Origin: Sulfurivermis fontis
GTDB lineage: Bacteria; Pseudomonadota; Gammaproteobacteria; Thiohalomonadales; Thiohalomonadaceae
DNA: 64,000 nucleotides
Reading direction: 5' to 3'
NCBI RefSeq assembly: GCF_004001245.1
Contig: NZ_AP018724.1
Location: 1 to 64,000 of the forward strand
Positions 15,195-62,117 of this stretch are shown one piece after another. The notes under the pieces were generated by a model. It saw nothing but the letters and a program-made list of their open reading frames with translations. It had not been told where the DNA came from and made no database searches. Every line of letters begins with the position of its first letter. The first letter of the stretch is position 1. Both the position numbers and the translations under genes were made by a program.

Positions 15195-16604
15195 ATGTCT
15201 GGTGAAAATGTTCTGAACATGATCAAAGAAAAGGGCGCGAAGTTCGTCGACTTCCGCTTCACCGATACCATCGGCAAAGAGCAGCATGTGACCTACCCGG
15301 TCAGCAAGATTGACGCTGACACCTTCACCGACGGCGTGATGTTCGACGGCTCCTCCATCTCCGGCTGGAAGCACATCAACGAATCCGACATGATCCTGAT
15401 GCCGGACGCCTCCACCGCCTACCTGGACCCGTTCGCCGACGAGCCGATGATCAACATCACCTGCAACATCGTCGAACCCTCCACCATGCAGGGTTACGAG
15501 CGCGACCCGCGTTCCATCGCCATGCGTGCCGAGGAATACCTGAAGTCCACCGGCATCGCGGATACCGCCTTCTTTGGTCCCGAGCCCGAATTCTTCATTT
15601 TCGACGACATCCGTTGGGGCGCCGACATGTCCGGCTGCTTCGTCAAGATCGATTCCGAAGAGGCCGACTGGAACTCCGAGCGCGTCTACCCCAACGGCAA
15701 CATGGGTCATCGCCCGGGCGTCAAGGGCGGCTACTTCCCGGTTCCCCCGGTCGACTCCCTGCACGACATCCGCGCCGCCATGTGCCTGGCGATGGAAGAG
15801 ATTGGCCTGAAGGTCGAGGTGCACCACCACGAAGTGGCCACCGCCGGCCAGTGCGAAATCGGTGTTGCCTTCAACACCCTGGTGAAGAAGGCCGACGAAG
15901 TGCAGAAGCTGAAGTACGTGGTGCACAACGTGGCCCACGCCTACGGCAAGACCGCCACCTTCATGCCCAAGCCGATGGTGGGTGACAACGGTTCCGGCAT
16001 GCACGTGCACCAGTCCCTGGCCAAGGGCGGCACCAACCTGTTCTCCGGCAACCTGTACGGCGGCCTGTCCGAGACCGCGCTGTACTACATCGGCGGCATC
16101 ATCAAGCACGCCCGTGCCCTGAACGCCATCACCAACCCGGGCACCAACAGCTACAAGCGTCTGGTCCCCGGCTTCGAAGCCCCGGTCATGCTGGCCTACT
16201 CCGCCCGCAACCGTTCCGCCTCGATCCGCATCCCCTTCGTTGCCAACCCGAAGGCCCGCCGCATCGAGACCCGTTTCCCGGATCCGACCGCCAACCCCTA
16301 CCTGGCCTTCGCGGCGCTGATGATGGCCGGCCTGGACGGCATCATGAACAAGATCCACCCGGGCGATGCCATGGACAAGGACCTGTATGACCTGCCGCCG
16401 GAAGAGGCCAAGGCCATTCCGACCGTGTGTCATGCCCTGGACCAGGCGCTGGACTACCTGGACAAGGACCGCGAGTTCCTGACCCGTGGCGGCGTGTTCA
16501 CCGACGACGTGATCGATGCCTACATCAAGCTGAAGATGGATGACGTCACGCGCATGCGCATGACCACCCACCCCATCGAGTTCGACATGTACTACAGCCT
16601 CTAA
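15195..16604 (+). CDS. glnA: Type I glutamine synthetase (GS-I beta)
   Basis: Makes glutamine from glutamate, ammonia and ATP; the central nitrogen assimilation enzyme, a dodecamer. 469 aa, equal to the E. coli enzyme. Visible motifs: [12 protein letters not shown], the active-site loop [22 protein letters not shown]-site [27 protein letters not shown], and the adenylylation loop [12 protein letters not shown] whose Tyr is modified by GlnE. The ATG follows GGAGGCAG. It is controlled by sigma-54/NtrC sites upstream and ended by a strong terminator. Confidence 0.98.
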
Positions 16605-16629
16605 ATACATACCGTTGTGAGCTCGAATG

Positions 16630-16658
16630 GAACGCCCCCGCAAGGGGGCGTTCTGTTT
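16630..16658 (+). terminator. Rho-independent terminator of glnA
   Basis: Stem GAACGCCCCC / GGGGGCGTTC with loop GCAA (16630-16653), followed by TGTTTTG. The location just after the glnA stop supports intrinsic termination. Confidence 0.85.
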
Positions 16659-16706
16659 TGTGGACGGCTTGCGCGTGCCGTGGGCAAGCCTGCTATAGTT
16701 CAGCGC

Positions 16707-17300
16707 ATGATGCGTCGCCTGCCATTACTGCTACTTCTTGTTGCCCTCAGTCTGGGTGTGCATGCCGAGGAAAAGGGCTACAAGATCGTACGCCCGGACG
16801 GTAGCATTGAATTCACCGACCAGCCGGCGCCTGGGGCGCAGGAAATCCCCCTGCCCAGGACCCCGGGCTACCAGGCGCCCCCGTCCCGTCCCTTGACGCC
16901 CCCTGTCGCCCCTGTCGCCCCCAAAGGGCCGCCATACAGCCAGTTGGCCATCACCGCCCCCGTGCCGGAACAGACGCTTCAGGACGGTGAAACCAGTGTG
17001 ACGGTTCACATCGCGCTGGAACCGGGACTGAAGCTGGGGCACCGCATGGTGGTGCTGCTCGACGGCGAGGTGGTAAGCGAGGGGGCCGGCAACAGCGTTG
17101 TCCTCAGTGATCTCGAGCGAGGGGCGCATACGGTCGTCGCCGAGGTGCGTGATGGCGCCGGCAATGTGGTCCAAACCGCGGCTCCCGTCACTTTCCATGT
17201 CCGACAGTATTCCAAGTTCTTCCAGCCGCAACCGCAGAATGGTGCGCCCTCGGCCGTGGGGCCGGCACCGATGATGCCCAAAGCACCGCGCGCACCCTGA
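16707..17300 (+). CDS. DUF4124 domain-containing secreted protein
   Basis: 197 aa exported protein of unknown function. A signal peptide (MMRRLPLLLLLVALSLGVHA) is followed by a DUF4124-type segment (YKIVRPDGSIEFTDQP), a proline-rich linker, and a C-terminal beta-rich part (VTVHIALEPGLKLGHRMVVL...) resembling Ig-like or PapD-like folds. Proteins of this kind sit between glnA and ntrBC in several Gammaproteobacteria. I took the ATG at 16707; ATG 16710 is equally possible. A 39-bp palindrome follows its stop and may end the transcript. Confidence 0.75.
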   Translation: MMRRLPLLLLLVALSLGVHAEEKGYKIVRPDGSIEFTDQPAPGAQEIPLPRTPGYQAPPSRPLTPPVAPVAPKGPPYSQLAITAPVPEQTLQDGETSVTVHIALEPGLKLGHRMVVLLDGEVVSEGAGNSVVLSDLERGAHTVVAEVRDGAGNVVQTAAPVTFHVRQYSKFFQPQPQNGAPSAVGPAPMMPKAPRAP

Positions 17301-17321
17301 AGCCAGCCCCGTTTTCATCAG

Positions 17322-17360
17322 CACGGGCAAACGCACCAAATTGGTGCGTTTGCCCGTGCG
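17322..17360. promoter_or_regulatory. 39-bp perfect palindrome centred on an ideal NtrC site
   Basis: Two 19-bp perfect arms around a single A. The centre, GCACCA-AAT-TGGTGC (17334-17348), matches the NtrC consensus exactly. It lies about 175 bp upstream of ntrB and just after the DUF4124 stop. It may be an NtrC operator, autoregulating ntrBC as at E. coli glnL, and may also fold in RNA as a terminator-like hairpin. There is no T-run after it, which argues for the DNA-site role. Confidence 0.7.
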
Positions 17361-17534
17361 GTCGTCTATCCTCATGTCCATAACAGTGCATCCTTGCATC
17401 GGGCTGTCATCGGGTCGCCCGCCAATCGTATTTTCATCTATTTGTTTTGATGGAAAAAATCATCTTGGACAGCGGTCCGTGGGGCATTGGGGGCCGAGTC
17501 GTAAAGATGGTTTGTTTCTTGCTTGACTTTGGAC

Positions 17535-18632
17535 ATGGAAATCCCAGGCATGCCTCCAGCCAGCCTCTACCAGGGCGTGATCGAGAACCTGCACACCGCC
17601 GTGCTGCTGTTCGATGACACCCTGCACCTGCGCTACCTCAATCCCGCTGCGGAGATGTTGCTGGCCGCCAGCTCCGGGCGCCTGCTCGGCAGCGGCGCGC
17701 AGCAGCTGTTGCCGAGCAGGACGCTGCACGCGGCACTGGAAGAGGCCCTCGCCAGCGGCCACCCGTTCACCGAACGAGAGTTGGTGCTGGAACTGGGGCT
17801 CGAGCGGCGTGTGACGGTGGACGTGACCGCGACTCCGCTCACCGATCCGGGGCGGCGCGAACTGCTGGTGGAAATGAACCAGGTCGATCGCCAGCTGCGC
17901 ATCACCCGCGAGGAAGGCCTGCTGGCGCAGACCGCCACGACCCGCGTGCTGGTGCGCGGCCTGGCCCATGAAATCAACAACCCCCTCGGCGGCCTGCGCG
18001 GCGCCGCACAGTTGCTGGAGCGCGAGCTGCCCGACGAGGCGTTGAAGGAATACACCCGCATCATCATCAGCGAGGCGGACCGGTTACAGAATCTGGTCAA
18101 CCGCATGCTCGGCCCCAATGCCCTGCCCAAGCGCCAGGCGGTGAACATCCACGAAGTGCTGGAGCGGGTGCGGCAGCTGGTGCAGACCGCGGTGCCGGAA
18201 GGCGTGCGCATCGAGCGCGATTACGATCCCAGTATTCCCGAACTGATGGGCGATCAGGATCAGCTCATCCAGGCGATCCTCAATCTGGTGCGCAATGCCG
18301 CCCAGGCGGTGGGCGAGCGCGGAGAGATCATCCTGCGCACGCGCACCCTGCGTCAGTACACCATCGGCCATACGCGCCACAAGCTGGTGATCCGCGTCGA
18401 TGTCATCGACAACGGTCCGGGCATACCGCCGGAGGTGATGGAGGCCATCTTCCTGCCCATGGTCACCGGCCGGCCGGAAGGCACCGGCCTCGGCCTGCCC
18501 ATCGCCCAATCCCTGATCAATCAGCATGGCGGTCTCATCGAATGCGACAGTCAGCCCGGCCTGACCATGTTTACGGTGTTGCTGCCCATCAATCCGGAAG
18601 GCGGCAGGAACGAATCCCGCAGCCGCCCCTAG
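17535..18632 (+). CDS. glnL: Nitrogen regulation sensor histidine kinase NtrB
   Basis: Cytoplasmic PAS-containing histidine kinase/phosphatase that, under PII control, sets NtrC phosphorylation. 365 aa from the ATG at 17535 (a TTG at 17523 is in frame). Residues about 12-120 form the PAS domain; the H-box is GLAHEINNPLGG with His145; the ATPase has NLVRNAAQA (N-box), DNGPGIPP (G1) and GTGLGLPIAQ (G2). It is immediately upstream of ntrC and preceded by the NtrC palindrome at 17322-17360. Confidence 0.95.
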   Translation: MEIPGMPPASLYQGVIENLHTAVLLFDDTLHLRYLNPAAEMLLAASSGRLLGSGAQQLLPSRTLHAALEEALASGHPFTERELVLELGLERRVTVDVTATPLTDPGRRELLVEMNQVDRQLRITREEGLLAQTATTRVLVRGLAHEINNPLGGLRGAAQLLERELPDEALKEYTRIIISEADRLQNLVNRMLGPNALPKRQAVNIHEVLERVRQLVQTAVPEGVRIERDYDPSIPELMGDQDQLIQAILNLVRNAAQAVGERGEIILRTRTLRQYTIGHTRHKLVIRVDVIDNGPGIPPEVMEAIFLPMVTGRPEGTGLGLPIAQSLINQHGGLIECDSQPGLTMFTVLLPINPEGGRNESRSRP

Positions 18633-18661
18633 CGGGGAAGGCCAGCCAAGAGAGCCACGAA

Positions 18662-20074
<1,413 letters not shown>

Positions 20075-21041
20075 CCCGGATATTTCACGAGTCTCCCGCT
20101 GACAGACCGTAATGGCCTCGGAAGGACAAAAAGACGGTTGGGAGGCTGGACCTGCCCAGGAAATGGGCAATGGGGTGCCCTGTGGGCAAACCTCCCCCTT
20201 ACCCCTATGGTTTGTCATCGTGCCGGGGGTGGCACTCGGTGAAGGTTATGGGGCGAGTGCTTGAGCGGCGGTCAGGAACACCGCTCGCAGCGGATGGTGG
20301 GAAGCCAGCAGGAGGCGGATACGGCGGGTATGGCGGACGATGGCGGCGCCGAACTTGAGCGGCCGCACGCGGATCGTGCTGGCCGTGGCCTGGGCCAGTT
20401 CGGTGCCGGCGAGCTCGCGCAGGCGCTGCATCAGTGTGTAGGCGAGCGCGGCGAACATCAGGCGCAGCCCGTTGGCCAGGAAGGTGTGGCAACTGGCGCG
20501 GGTGCCAAACAGATCGAGCTGGGCTTCCTTGATGCGGTTCTCCGCTTCGCCCCTCTGGCAATAGAGAGCGTCGTAGAGCACGTCGGCGCGCGTGGCGCGC
20601 GTCTCCAGCCGCGAGAGGGTCGGAGAGCTGGCCAGTGTCACGACTCTGCCCACCGCCGTCTGCTATCTGCGGGTCATGGCGCAGTACATCATGGTCGTTC
20701 AAGTCCTCGTAGCCGCAGCACAGACCATACAGGCGTTGGGCGACCAAATCGCGCAGGCTGTGGGTGATGCGTTCGGGATTTCGGGGGTCGAGGAGCGCCG
20801 CCGCCACTGCCCGGGACAGACCCAGCTTGCGATCCACCTGCCGCAAAAGCATCAGGCCGCCATCGGAACTGAGGGCGCCACCTGCAAGTGGCTTCGATCA
20901 CCCGACGTCCGAGACGCCCAAAATCCATCCCATCTGCGGTACACTTTGGCATCGGCGCAGCCCCCCCACAAAATCTTCTCGCACGCTGATTTTATGCGGG
21001 TTTCAGGGCTGTGCCGACCTCATGTTGATGAAATATCCGGG
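20075..21041. mobile_element. Degenerate IS1380-family-like element
   Basis: A 967-bp block bounded by 13-bp perfect inverted repeats, CCCGGATATTTCA (20075-20087) and TGAAATATCCGGG (21029-21041). It contains a broken transposase gene. Intact members of this family are usually about 1.6-1.7 kb, so some 0.7 kb has been lost. No clear target duplication is visible (flanks CTAG and TTAA). It occupies most of the gap between ntrC and the next gene. The family is assigned from the transposase fragments. Confidence 0.75.
20246..20952 (-). pseudogene. IS1380-type transposase, frameshifted and internally deleted
   Basis: Three fragments of one transposase lie in order on the minus strand. The N-terminus CTADGMDFGRLGRRVIEA ends near 20890. 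After a frameshift comes DGGLMLLRQVDRKLGLS to ALLDPRNPERITHSLRDLV and LYGLCCGYEDLNDHDVLRHDP, up to about 20680. The C-terminal part, YDALYCQRGEAENRIKEAQL to the stop at 20246, is in a third arrangement. The middle, which would hold the catalytic DDE residues, is missing, so the protein cannot be active. Confidence 0.8.
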
Positions 21042-21118: not shown

Positions 21119-22294
21119 ATGTCTGGAAAGAATAATAAAAATTCCCGGCATGCACTCGACCCACATCGAGTGGGATGTATCCGGCTGGCCCGTGTCCTGG
21201 AGCTGCGCCCTCGGGTGTTTGAGCGAATGGTGCGGGAAATGGAAGATTCGCCGGCATTTACGGCAGTGAGGCCCTATGTGCATGTGGGACAGGTGATGGA
21301 GACAACCCTTGCCGCCAATGGCCGGGCCGGTCGTGGGCGCGCGTTGCCCGTAGCCTGGTCCGACGGGGCCGCGGCGTTCCAGTTCACCTCAGCGTTTTAT
21401 ACCCGCCATTACGGCTTCCAGACGGAGGTACTAACCAGTCTCGATCCATCTGCGGCGGGGCTCCTGCAACAGATGCGGGCGATAAACAGCCGCAATCTGC
21501 TCACCGTCAGTCTGCTACGCACCCTGGGGAGGCTACAGCGAGCGTTTCTGGAGACCCGTGATCCGCTCACACTCAATGCGCTGGCACTGGATGAACTCGC
21601 TGTGGGTATCAACGCCGATCCGCGGTGCCCAATCATGGCCGATGCCAGCCGCCTGTCGCGCCTGATGCGCCACCTGGCGCTTGGCTTGGCGGACGGCGAG
21701 GTGGTGATGGCCTCCGCCTTATGTCCGCGCCCGCGGGAACTGCACCGCCGCTATGTGGACAGTGTGGTGCGTACCGAGCAGACGGCGCTGCTCGAACATG
21801 TCGGCACGTCCGCACTTAGCGATGATGCAATCGCAATGGCTGTGCTGGAACGCTTTGGCATGGCGCTGTCGCGGCGCACTGTGGCCAACGTCCGCCGTGA
21901 TTTGGGTATCCCGTGCAGCCGCCAGCGGGGGGCAAATGATGGCTATCTGGGGGCGACCCATGGGTTCAGCCCATTGCACCCGCTGGCGCGCGAGGTGGTG
22001 CACACGGCGGCGCCGACAGTGGGCGGCGTCTACGAGTTGCATGCCCGCGGTCCCGATGCCCGGCGGGCCGGCGTCATCTACATCGGCAGCGCCGGTGATC
22101 TGCGCAAGCGGCTGATGGACCATCTGCGCGGTGCCGGTACCAATACCTGCCTAGCGGCCCATATCGCCGATGGCCGGGTGTGGTTCCGCTACCGGCAGGT
22201 GGTCCATCGTTGGCGCGAGACTGAACGGCAGGTGTACCGGGCATTTAGGGAAAGTTTCGGCGACCGTCCGGCCTGTAACCGGATGAGCCCCTGA
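21119..22294 (+). CDS. Sigma-54-like protein fused to a GIY-YIG nuclease domain
   Basis: 391 aa, no family name known to me. Residues 13-46 (LDPHRVGCIRLARVLELR and following) resemble the sigma-54 activator-interacting helix. Residues 115-190 (LLQQMRAINSRNLLTVSLL, then PLTLNALALDELAVGI) follow the RpoN core-binding/HTH region. Residues 233-270 contain ALSDDAIAMAVLERFG and SRRTVANVRRDLGIP, close to the RpoN box ARRTVAKYR. The acidic middle of true sigma-54 is missing. After a linker, residues 303-388 are GIY-YIG: GVY 303-305, YIG 321-323, Arg329/331, Glu369, Asn387. The start has no clear ribosome binding site. It lies 13 bp before a GGDEF-EAL gene and near ntrBC. Roles as a decoy sigma factor, DNA-targeted nuclease or mobile-element protein are speculation. 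Confidence 0.7.
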   Translation: MSGKNNKNSRHALDPHRVGCIRLARVLELRPRVFERMVREMEDSPAFTAVRPYVHVGQVMETTLAANGRAGRGRALPVAWSDGAAAFQFTSAFYTRHYGFQTEVLTSLDPSAAGLLQQMRAINSRNLLTVSLLRTLGRLQRAFLETRDPLTLNALALDELAVGINADPRCPIMADASRLSRLMRHLALGLADGEVVMASALCPRPRELHRRYVDSVVRTEQTALLEHVGTSALSDDAIAMAVLERFGMALSRRTVANVRRDLGIPCSRQRGANDGYLGATHGFSPLHPLAREVVHTAAPTVGGVYELHARGPDARRAGVIYIGSAGDLRKRLMDHLRGAGTNTCLAAHIADGRVWFRYRQVVHRWRETERQVYRAFRESFGDRPACNRMSP

Positions 22295-22307: not shown

Positions 22308-24431
22308 ATGACAGCGATGGACCCGATGGACTCAGTGCCGCTGCGGCTGCAGGATTTCAAGGAATACGCCGAGCGCGTATTCGCAAATATTCCCAGTGGA
22401 CTGGTCATCTTATCGGCCAGGCTGCGGATTCTGACCGTCAATCGCGCCTTTCTGCAGATGTTCGGCGTCACCCAGGGGGACGTCGAGGGACGCTTTTCGC
22501 ATGAAGTGATCTCGGCGGATGGGTTGGCCGACCAGTTGGCCACGGTATTGGGCGGGAGCGTACCGCGAGCTGATGGCATACTGCTGATGCGGGTGTGCGG
22601 AGGTGAAGAGCGTCTGATGCGCTACGCCGTTACTGGTATGTACCTTGCAGAAGAAGAAGAAGAAGAAGCACGTTTGCTCGTCGCGCTGGAGGATATCACC
22701 GAACAGGAGCGTGCTTTTCAGGCCCTGGCTCGCTCCGAGGCCCGCCTGGCCGAGGCCCAGCGCATCGCGCGTCTGGGGCATTGGGAGTGGAATGTCGCTA
22801 CCGGTGAGCTGTGGTGGTCCGACGAGGTGTACAACATTTTCGAGCGGGAGAAAGGGCGCTTCGTCCCCGGCTACGAATCTTTCCTGGCCTGCCTTCACCC
22901 AGATGACCGAGCACGGATAGAGTCCGCCGTGCGAAAGTCGATCGACGACGGCAGCGACTATCGTCTCGATCACCGCATCGTGTTGCCTAGTGGTGGCGTG
23001 CGCTATGTACATGAACAGGCAAGCTGTGTGCTTGGTGCGGACGGTATTGTCGAGCGGATGGTGGGTACGGTGCAGGACATCACCGAACGCAAGGAGACGG
23101 AGGCACGCCTGGCCCACCTGGCGCACCACGATCCGCTGACCTGCCTGCCCAACCGCATGCTGCTGCGTGACCGCATCAGCCAGGCTATTACCTATGGACG
23201 TCGGCACGATCGGTTGGTAGCCGTGCTGTTTATCGACCTGGATCGCTTCAAGCGTATCAACGATAGCTTGGGGCATGACGTGGGCGATCGATTGTTGCAG
23301 GCCATCGCGGAACGTCTGCGCAAGTCGGTGCGCGATGGCGATACGGTGGCCCGGCTTGGCGGCGACGAATTTGCCATCGCCCTGACCGATGTCGCCGATG
23401 CGGACGACGTGGCCAAGCTGGCACGCAAGCTGCTAAATGCCATCAATCAGTCTATTCTCCTCAATGGGCGCGAGTATTACGCCACTGCGAGCATTGGTAT
23501 TAGCCTATTTCCCCACGATGGCGGTGACGTGGAAACTTTACTGAAGAACGCCGATACTGCCATGTACGAGGCGAAGGAGGCGGGTCGCAACGCCTATCGG
23601 TTCTTCCGCGAGGAAATGGATTTCAACATCCGTGCCCACCTTGAGCTGGAGCAATCGCTACGTGGCGCCCTGGAGCGGGGTGAATTCGAGGTGCACTACC
23701 AGCCCCAAATACGCCTGCAGGACGGTGTGGTGACCGGTGTGGAGGCGCTACTGCGCTGGAACCGGCCCGATGGCAAGTTCGTCGGACCGGATATATTCAT
23801 CCCTGTTTTGGAAGAAACCGGCCTGATTGTGGAGGTGGGTGCCTGGGTGATGCACCGAGCCTGTGTCGATGTCGTGCATTGGAACAGGCTCCTTGGACGC
23901 GAACTGCTCGTGGCCGTCAATCTGTCCCGGCGTCAGTTCGATGACAAGCACCTGGCGGAGACCGTGGCGGAGGTATTGCGGGAATCGGGGCTTCCGCCGG
24001 CGCTTCTCGAACTGGAAGTCACCGAAAGCATCGTAATGTCGGATGCGGCCCGGGCCGGGCATGTCATGGAAACCTTGCGAGGTACCGGAGTGCATCTGGC
24101 GATGGACGACTTCGGCACTGGTTATTCCTCCCTGGTTTATCTCAAGCGATTTCCCCTGGACCGCCTCAAAATCGACAAGGAGTTTGTGCGTGACATCGGT
24201 GTCGACGCCAATGATGACGCGATCGTGCGGACGATAATTGCCTTGGCGGAGAATCTTGGTCTTGAGGCCGTGGCCGAGGGGGTGGAGACGGAGGTTCAGC
24301 GTGACTTCCTTCAGCGCCATGGCTGCCAGCTTGCCCAAGGGTACCTTTACAGCCGGCCGCTACCCGTGGCGGATCTGGAGCACTATTTCGTCAAATGCAG
24401 AAGTTCGCGACGAAGTTCGGGGTCAGAATAA
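22308..24431 (+). CDS. PAS-PAS-GGDEF-EAL bifunctional c-di-GMP protein
   Basis: 707 aa cytoplasmic sensor that may both make and degrade c-di-GMP. Two PAS domains (about 20-130 and 145-260) are followed by GGDEF with intact RLGGDEF (near 350) and EAL with VEALLRW (near 478), VNLSRRQF, DDFGTGYSS, LKIDKEFV and AEGVETE, so both sites look active. A (GAA)6 tract at 22650-22667 encodes six Glu in the first PAS. Ribosome binding site AGGGAGGGGA precedes the ATG. It is likely cotranscribed with the sigma-54-like gene. The last codons (SSGSE, stop) come from the downstream repeat, so the native C-terminus may have been replaced. Confidence 0.92.
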   Translation: MTAMDPMDSVPLRLQDFKEYAERVFANIPSGLVILSARLRILTVNRAFLQMFGVTQGDVEGRFSHEVISADGLADQLATVLGGSVPRADGILLMRVCGGEERLMRYAVTGMYLAEEEEEEARLLVALEDITEQERAFQALARSEARLAEAQRIARLGHWEWNVATGELWWSDEVYNIFEREKGRFVPGYESFLACLHPDDRARIESAVRKSIDDGSDYRLDHRIVLPSGGVRYVHEQASCVLGADGIVERMVGTVQDITERKETEARLAHLAHHDPLTCLPNRMLLRDRISQAITYGRRHDRLVAVLFIDLDRFKRINDSLGHDVGDRLLQAIAERLRKSVRDGDTVARLGGDEFAIALTDVADADDVAKLARKLLNAINQSILLNGREYYATASIGISLFPHDGGDVETLLKNADTAMYEAKEAGRNAYRFFREEMDFNIRAHLELEQSLRGALERGEFEVHYQPQIRLQDGVVTGVEALLRWNRPDGKFVGPDIFIPVLEETGLIVEVGAWVMHRACVDVVHWNRLLGRELLVAVNLSRRQFDDKHLAETVAEVLRESGLPPALLELEVTESIVMSDAARAGHVMETLRGTGVHLAMDDFGTGYSSLVYLKRFPLDRLKIDKEFVRDIGVDANDDAIVRTIIALAENLGLEAVAEGVETEVQRDFLQRHGCQLAQGYLYSRPLPVADLEHYFVKCRSSRRSSGSE

Positions 24432-24655
24432 CAATTGGGTGATTGTTACTCGAAGAGTCCGGGGAGTTTTACTCGGGAGTTTTACTCTGACCCCGAACTA
24501 CGCGATTGGGTGATTGTTACTCGAAGAGTCCGGGGAGTTTTACTCGGGAGTTTTACTCTGACCCCGAACTACGCGTTACTCTGACCCCGAACTACGCGCG
24601 TTACTCGGGAGTTTGACCTTACTCTGACCCCGAACTACGTGACCCCGAACTTCGG
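24410..24655. repeat. REP-like GGGGTCAGAGTAA repeat cluster with a 71-bp tandem duplication
   Basis: Many copies of the core TTACTCTGACCCCGAACTA (complement TAGTTCGGGGTCAGAGTAA). Two perfect 71-bp direct repeats run 24434-24504 and 24505-24575, followed by partial units. The same core recurs at 59250-59370. I recall this core as common beside REP-associated (TnpA-REP/RAYT) elements in Gammaproteobacteria; no transposase is present here. The unit is open toward both flanking genes and gives each the ending SSGSE-stop. Confidence 0.8.

Positions 24656-58969: not shown

Positions 58970-62117
<3,148 letters not shown>

Follow-up and report, generated by a model that had tools for sequence, protein, structure and literature searches.

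What would a bacterium do with a protein in which a DNA-binding domain of the sigma-54 (RpoN) type is joined to a GIY-YIG nuclease fold, and where on the chromosome would such a protein act? The question is raised by an open reading frame, here called gene A, in a 64,000-nucleotide stretch of the Sulfurivermis fontis genome (the window). Its relatives, the gene that follows it (gene B) and the simple repeats within that gene suggest an answer; the features concerned are listed in Table 1.

Table 1. Features of the gene A–gene B cassette in the window.
Feature	Position	Strand	Basis or remark
Two-gene cassette, stretch shared with L007 and L008	21043..24397	+	blastn; includes ~76 nt before gene A
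Gene A, sigma-54 DNA-binding domain and GIY-YIG nuclease fusion	21119..22294	+	391 aa
Gene A, Sigma54_DBD homology (residues 120–270), with HTH and RpoN box (251–260)	21476..21928	+	Pfam, hhalign
Gene A, GIY-YIG domain (residues 303–388)	22025..22282	+	GVY, YIG, R329, R331, E369 and N387 invariant
Gene B, PAS-PAS-GGDEF-EAL sensor	22308..24431	+	Pfam; 707 aa; starts 13 nt after gene A
Sigma-54-type element TGGTATGTACCTTGC	22634..22648	+	TGG-N8-TTGC, GG-N10-GC spacing; beside (GAA)6
(GAA)6 run, poly-Glu in first PAS domain of gene B	22650..22667	+	one base after the element

Domain organization of gene A

The frame of gene A is open, as had been claimed, and its resemblance to sigma-54 is clear across the DNA-binding domain. 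Pfam Sigma54_DBD matches residues 120–270 with an E-value of 2.9e-8 (34 bits against a curated cut-off of 22.8), hhalign against 10 RpoN proteins gives 3.4e-8 across the same domain, and a PDB search with a profile of the eight intact homologues finds A. aeolicus RpoN (5ui5, E 7.5e-11). All eight intact members match Sigma54_DBD at E ≤ 0.1 (best 4.8e-10). The segment at 251–260 had been correctly recognized as an RpoN box, with Arg252, Arg253, Ala256 and Arg259 all invariant, and Arg181 of the helix-turn-helix is also invariant in the family.

The original prediction had extended the resemblance to the first ~270 residues and described a compact sigma-54-like protein. This does not hold for residues 1–119, in which hhalign detects no similarity to the 10 RpoN proteins (probability 0.1, E 0.53) and Pfam has no match; the supposed activator-interacting helix at 21–37 lies in this part. 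The supposed core-binding segment at 115–190 is mostly part of the DNA-binding domain in the Pfam and hhalign alignments. There is no Pfam match to a core RNA polymerase binding domain in gene A, and the PDB profile alignment extends upstream of the DNA-binding domain in A. aeolicus RpoN (profile 78–278 on residues 151–341). With region I undetectable in residues 1–119, the idea of a compact sigma factor is rejected, and gene A is by homology a sigma-54-type DNA reader, now joined to a nuclease fold, and not a sigma factor.

The GIY-YIG assignment is borne out: the key residues GVY, YIG, Arg329, Arg331, Glu369 and Asn387 are identical in all eight intact homologues, and all eight match the Pfam GIY-YIG family at E ≤ 0.1 (best 1.1e-5), with the window protein alone falling below the cut-off (16.2 bits against 22.6). 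PDB matches of this part are weak (endonuclease II, 0.52; UvrC, 0.89), and an AlphaFold2 model of gene A built from three input sequences is unusable (pLDDT 35). The joining of the two domains is confirmed, and the fusion is conserved across homologues.

Distribution of gene A and selection on it

A search for the same fusion finds it at full length in eight intact members, at the window locus and at L007, L008, L009, L010, L028, L029 and L030. Two of these homologues are in a metagenome-assembled genome of the same genus, HGW-Gammaproteobacteria-1 (L007, 87%; L008, 85%), two are on the plasmids pDCB1 of Diaphorobacter and pSTJ2 of Sulfuricystis (37–38%), and three further full-length carriers belong to the order of Sulfuricystis (G852, G1041 and G831). 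A third plasmid match, in Rhodococcus, covers the GIY-YIG part only. There are also damaged relatives: G893 lacks the N-terminal part of gene A, a second locus of G831 contains a remnant, and in the distant G431 the gene is frameshifted, with its two halves in different frames.

Gene A is rare among the genomes sampled. It is present in one of 369 genomes sampled from the class, namely the window's own, and 398 genomes of the phylum yield four matches, which are the window's genome, Sulfuricystis, G431 and one ordinary RpoN. In the order of Sulfuricystis, for which the sample was centred on G666, there are five matches among 399 genomes, two of which are Sulfuricystis and G893 with its shortened gene A. 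Another order, of 33 genomes and reached through a 23S probe target, has none. Several candidate relatives proved to be RpoN itself. Nine of 48 genomes in the class of G431 matched, comprising G431 and eight matches restricted to the RpoN tail, of which seven loci were checked and are RpoN, as is the eighth (G450); five further matches in the order and one from the homologue search are likewise RpoN. A phage origin was also considered and rejected, as searches of 50,697 phage records and of viral contigs gave no match to gene A.

The gene is under purifying selection. The ratio dN/dS for the whole of gene A is 0.17–0.31 in five pairs, and for the GIY-YIG part it is 0.07–0.16 in three close pairs, the lowest of the three parts compared.

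Gene A and gene B form a cassette

A PAS gene directly follows gene A at all eight loci with an intact gene A. PAS, GGDEF and EAL domains are found by Pfam in all four of the gene B products scanned (the window, L009, L028 and L029), with a protoglobin domain preceding PAS in the last three, and gene B of L010 is annotated as an EAL protein. The gene A stop codon overlaps an ATG in L009, L010 and L028. In G431 the gene downstream of the frameshifted gene A encodes a PAS hybrid histidine kinase.

Some copies of gene B are altered. That of L030, cut short by the contig end, appears as two overlapping ORFs in different frames (L030 2–2481, minus strand), apparently owing to a frameshift, or else an assembly error, at the end of the protoglobin domain. 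Within the two-cassette metagenome-assembled genome, gene B of L007 (9187–11236) is split into two overlapping frames in the GGDEF region, and that of L008 (9189–11258) has an apparent small in-frame deletion in the same region.

The cassettes of L007 and L008 are at chromosomal sites unrelated to that of the window. The suggestion that gene A is a mobile-element protein is partly borne out by these locations and by the two full-length homologues on plasmids, but no transposase was seen in the shared stretch. A transposase remnant does lie directly upstream of the cassette in the window, between ntrC and gene A (20205–20852, minus strand; Pfam DDE_Tnp_1_4, 3.1e-38), with only the C-terminal part present.

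The wider surroundings differ among the loci. In the window, glnA, ntrB and ntrC (15195–20074; named by eye) lie just before the cassette, and pilU/pilT-like genes follow it; the ntrC product has a Sigma54_activat domain (Pfam). Although these three genes themselves belong to sigma-54 regulation, the position of the cassette beside them is probably due to chance, because other loci have different neighbors. Near the cassettes of L008 (5535–7826) and L028 (11489–13783), which are in unrelated genomes, there are metE-like and LysR-type genes (by eye), with a Fic-like gene (by eye) intervening in L028; this could reflect chance or a favored site. Near the cassettes of L028 (16622–17347, minus strand) and L029 (642–1400, plus strand) are genes whose products, judged by eye, belong to one small protein family; they are without a Pfam match, and we take them to resemble proteins of integrative conjugative elements. 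Finally, two distant tandem repeats in the window (24434–24598 and 59242–59363) share the core TTTTACTCTGACCCCGAACT; the first lies immediately beyond gene B on its 3′ side, and the last codons of gene B differ from those of L008.

Repeat tracts within gene B

There are two types of repeats in gene B. The first is a pure (GAA)n tract in the first PAS domain, present at all eight loci with an intact gene A and differing in length among them: 6 units in the window, 7 in L007, 9 in L008, 8 in L009, 7 in L010, 12 in L028, 8 in L029 and 9 in L030. The tract consists solely of GAA codons, whereas GAA and GAG are mixed elsewhere in gene B. Such runs are uncommon. The (GAA)6 of the window is the only exact copy found in its genome. 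Of 41 genomes scanned, the carriers have exact (GAA)6 only at these cassettes (G893, in which both genes are truncated, has none), and two of the 33 without gene A have one, in neither case within a PAS gene. Exact (GAA)7 is present in only seven of 398 genomes of the phylum, including the carriers Sulfuricystis and G431. The tract of G431 has nine or ten units and is at a different place in PAS than in the other cassettes; the two numbers come from overlapping contig ends of the assembly that differ by one GAA unit, which suggests that tract lengths are mixed within that sample.

The second type is an additional (GCAA)n tract, with n from 3 to 32, which the beta-type loci have close to the 5′ end of gene B (that of L028 is interrupted by an assembly gap of 100 N); there is none in the window or the HGW loci. 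In L009, L010 and L030 every third GCAA number joins an upstream start to gene B, so that reading frame depends on repeat number at these three loci, and the numbers sequenced (5, 6 and 32) are all out of frame. At the L029-type loci a stop codon follows the tract. This frame-setting does not apply to the window, which has only the in-frame GAA tract.

Other observations concern the tie between tracts and gene A. At L065 the two tracts have stayed long although the adjacent gene A has decayed; an intact copy exists elsewhere in that genome. The tracts on contig 9 of G831, considered as a target acted upon in trans, proved to belong to a cassette in decay, in which a remnant of gene A is left. 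In G632 (L093 3665–6682, minus strand) a CheB-CheR-PAS-like protein (by eye) has a (GAA)9 poly-Glu run in a PAS-like loop, and gene A was not found in this genome, which is 70% complete. A length-variable PAS may thus have arisen independently in G632; because of this genome a fixed link between poly-Glu PAS domains in general and gene A is rejected, since such runs can arise without gene A.

A sigma-54-type element abuts the tracts

At the upstream edge of the GAA tract is a candidate sigma-54-type element. The RpoN promoter consensus is TGGCAC-N5-TTGC (PMC3538637, PMC9977809), and the spacing of the candidate element is exactly the same (GG-N10-GC). There are several features of note. First, the strict motif TGGNAN6TTGC has a single match on both strands of the 64-kb window, at 22634. 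Second, it is present at the edge of 15 of the 16 readable gamma and beta cassette tracts (12 of 13 beside an intact gene A, and all three at L031 and L065, where gene A is truncated or decayed), ending one base before GAA tracts and zero bases before GCAA tracts. Third, it is absent from all seven control GAA tracts, in genomes (some incomplete) without a gene A found; the difference has a Fisher probability of 3.3e-5, for rows that are not phylogenetically independent. Fourth, the 19 loci contain 27 matches in 589,098 strand-bases, 15 of them at tracts, and viral contigs contain no element-plus-tract pattern. The strict motif was worded after the tracts had been inspected, and the GG/GC spacing is independent of them. 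The one exception among the 16 is L008, in which the GC of the element is replaced by a GAA unit. Left out of the count are an L028 half-tract that starts in the assembly gap and the tract of G431 (two contig ends), where there is GG-N10-GT only and no strict match.

As the element is within coding DNA, its codons can be examined for constraint. Its Leu codon is CTT in nine of nine sequences, though CTT accounts for only 5–18% of Leu codons in these genes, and its Thr codon is ACT in eight of eight, the ninth sequence having Ser (TCT). Among 64 conserved-residue columns across five lineages, these two are the least likely to have identical codons, with probabilities of 7e-6 and 2e-5 (uncorrected for the 64 columns). 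Identity this improbable indicates that the DNA sequence of the element, and not just its translation, appears to be constrained.

Sigma-54 promoters had been proposed as targets of a −24/−12-recognizing protein with a nuclease attached. Matching elements do exist, but in place of ordinary RpoN promoters the protein probably targets −24/−12-type elements inside the neighboring sensor gene, set against simple repeats. Separately, L029 has a TGG-N8-TTGCA element (5171, minus strand) ~50 nt upstream of gene A that may serve RpoN as a genuine promoter or gene A in autoregulation.

The sequence of the elements, and the full rpoN in the genome, would also be compatible with promoters used by RpoN itself, with transcripts starting in the repeats and gene A antagonizing RpoN there. 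We regard this as very improbable, since it would presumably call for two promoters at the edges of different repeats, kept across families without clear purpose.

A simpler role in local regulation is somewhat easier to entertain, though we consider it unlikely. The sigma-54-type domain would bind the element in gene B so as to stop or modulate transcription of the sensor gene, or to keep RpoN holoenzyme away, with the GIY-YIG fold serving DNA binding or a minor function, and the repeats would slip passively, as at contingency loci in general, altering spacing or protein length. The exact RpoN spacing and the adjacency of the two genes (including the stop codon overlapping an upstream ATG in L009, L010 and L028) are as this explanation would have them, and simple repeats can phase-vary without a dedicated enzyme. 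Against it count the GIY-YIG residues, invariant in all eight proteins, the purifying selection on that domain, stronger than on the two other parts with which it was compared, the elements at the edges of both repeat types, which differ in sequence and in position within the gene, and the rarity of long pure (GAA)n elsewhere.

The cassette occupies three mutually unrelated sites in two related genomes and is also on two plasmids, which raises the further idea of a selfish unit, in which a homing-type nuclease spreads the two genes into relatives, the sites in gene B marking the copy that serves as donor. GIY-YIG domains are common among homing endonucleases (PMC1564403). Homing elements interrupt their own target, but here the candidate site, the presumed target, is intact in gene B, so that insertion gives the element no protection, and such targets abut 15 of the 16 readable tracts. 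We judge this explanation improbable.

A proposed role in repeat instability

We favor a reading of gene A as a site-directed repeat-instability nuclease. The sigma-54-type domain would recognize TGGNA-N6-TTGC at the upstream edge of a repeat in the sensor gene, the tethered GIY-YIG domain would nick or cut the repeat or DNA close to it, and units would be gained or lost when the break is repaired. Changes in (GAA)n would alter poly-Glu length in PAS in frame and so tune the sensor, and changes in (GCAA)n would switch its reading frame ON or OFF; either would regulate c-di-GMP or kinase output. Recognition of the element, taken alone, is quite probable in view of the domain, the spacing and the codon constraint. 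Cutting is suggested by the invariant nuclease residues, and repeat mutagenesis by the position of the elements and the differing lengths of the tracts; for the complete chain of binding, cutting and repeat change we lean modestly in favor. Whether the whole amounts to a programmed local mutator, with a domesticated sigma-54 reader steering its own nuclease to the repeats of a neighboring sensor such that the cell or plasmid controls where and how fast the sensor evolves, we see as evenly balanced.

Several observations count against an instability nuclease. These are the loss of the GC of the element in L008, the GG-N10-GT of G431, the lack of GCAA in the window and HGW loci, the run in G632, the tracts beside a decayed gene A in L065, and the broken gene B at two of the eight loci. 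Ordinary slippage likewise changes repeat length.

Relation to known systems

Gene A is like RpoN in its homologous DNA-binding domain, including the helix-turn-helix and RpoN box, and in the GG-N10-GC spacing of its candidate sites. It is unlike RpoN in having no detectable activator-interacting region and no Pfam core-binding match, in the fused nuclease fold, and in that its candidate sites adjoin repeats within a coding gene. Like I-TevI, UvrC/Cho and T4 endonuclease II, it has the GIY-YIG residues and a nuclease joined to a separate DNA reader, but unlike in modular GIY-YIG endonucleases the nuclease is C-terminal and the reader is a sigma-54 domain. A C-terminal Asn has been proposed as a mark of the UvrC/homing lineage of GIY-YIG endonucleases (PMC1564403), and gene A has such a residue.

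Among simple-sequence-repeat phase-variable loci, of which the tetranucleotide tracts of Haemophilus are an example, the cassettes are similar in that the frame depends on a (GCAA)n tract close to the 5′ end. They differ in the neighboring nuclease fold and the element at the tract edge, and in that the gene under control encodes a c-di-GMP enzyme or a kinase. The phosphodiesterases PdcB and PdcC of Clostridioides difficile are phase-variable and act on c-di-GMP, being switched by promoter inversion (PMC11868660); phase variation of the cassette would similarly reach c-di-GMP turnover, through repeats and a linked nuclease and not through promoter inversion.

The main text of a GIY-YIG survey (PMC1564403) contains neither 'sigma' nor 'RpoN'. 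The statement that no described family joins sigma-54 and GIY-YIG agrees with the literature, in which we found none among the matches listed. Nor was there, among the matches listed, a description of GIY-YIG with phase variation, of repeat tracts with RpoN and an endonuclease, or of repeat-based phase variation of c-di-GMP. We know of no system with a nuclease dedicated to the repeats of its neighbor, and if the mechanism holds the system would be new in kind.

Phase variation at simple repeats is usually seen as passive polymerase slippage, at a rate set by repeat length and general repair. If the proposed mechanism is true, repeat mutation in bacteria would be an encoded and targetable activity, carried out by a sequence-guided nuclease, and the promoter reader of a sigma factor would have been turned to a wholly different use. 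The site and the nuclease would together provide a two-part tool for studies of repeat expansion, GAA repeats included. For the organisms that carry these cassettes, it would mean that repeat variation is linked to c-di-GMP signaling on mobile DNA.
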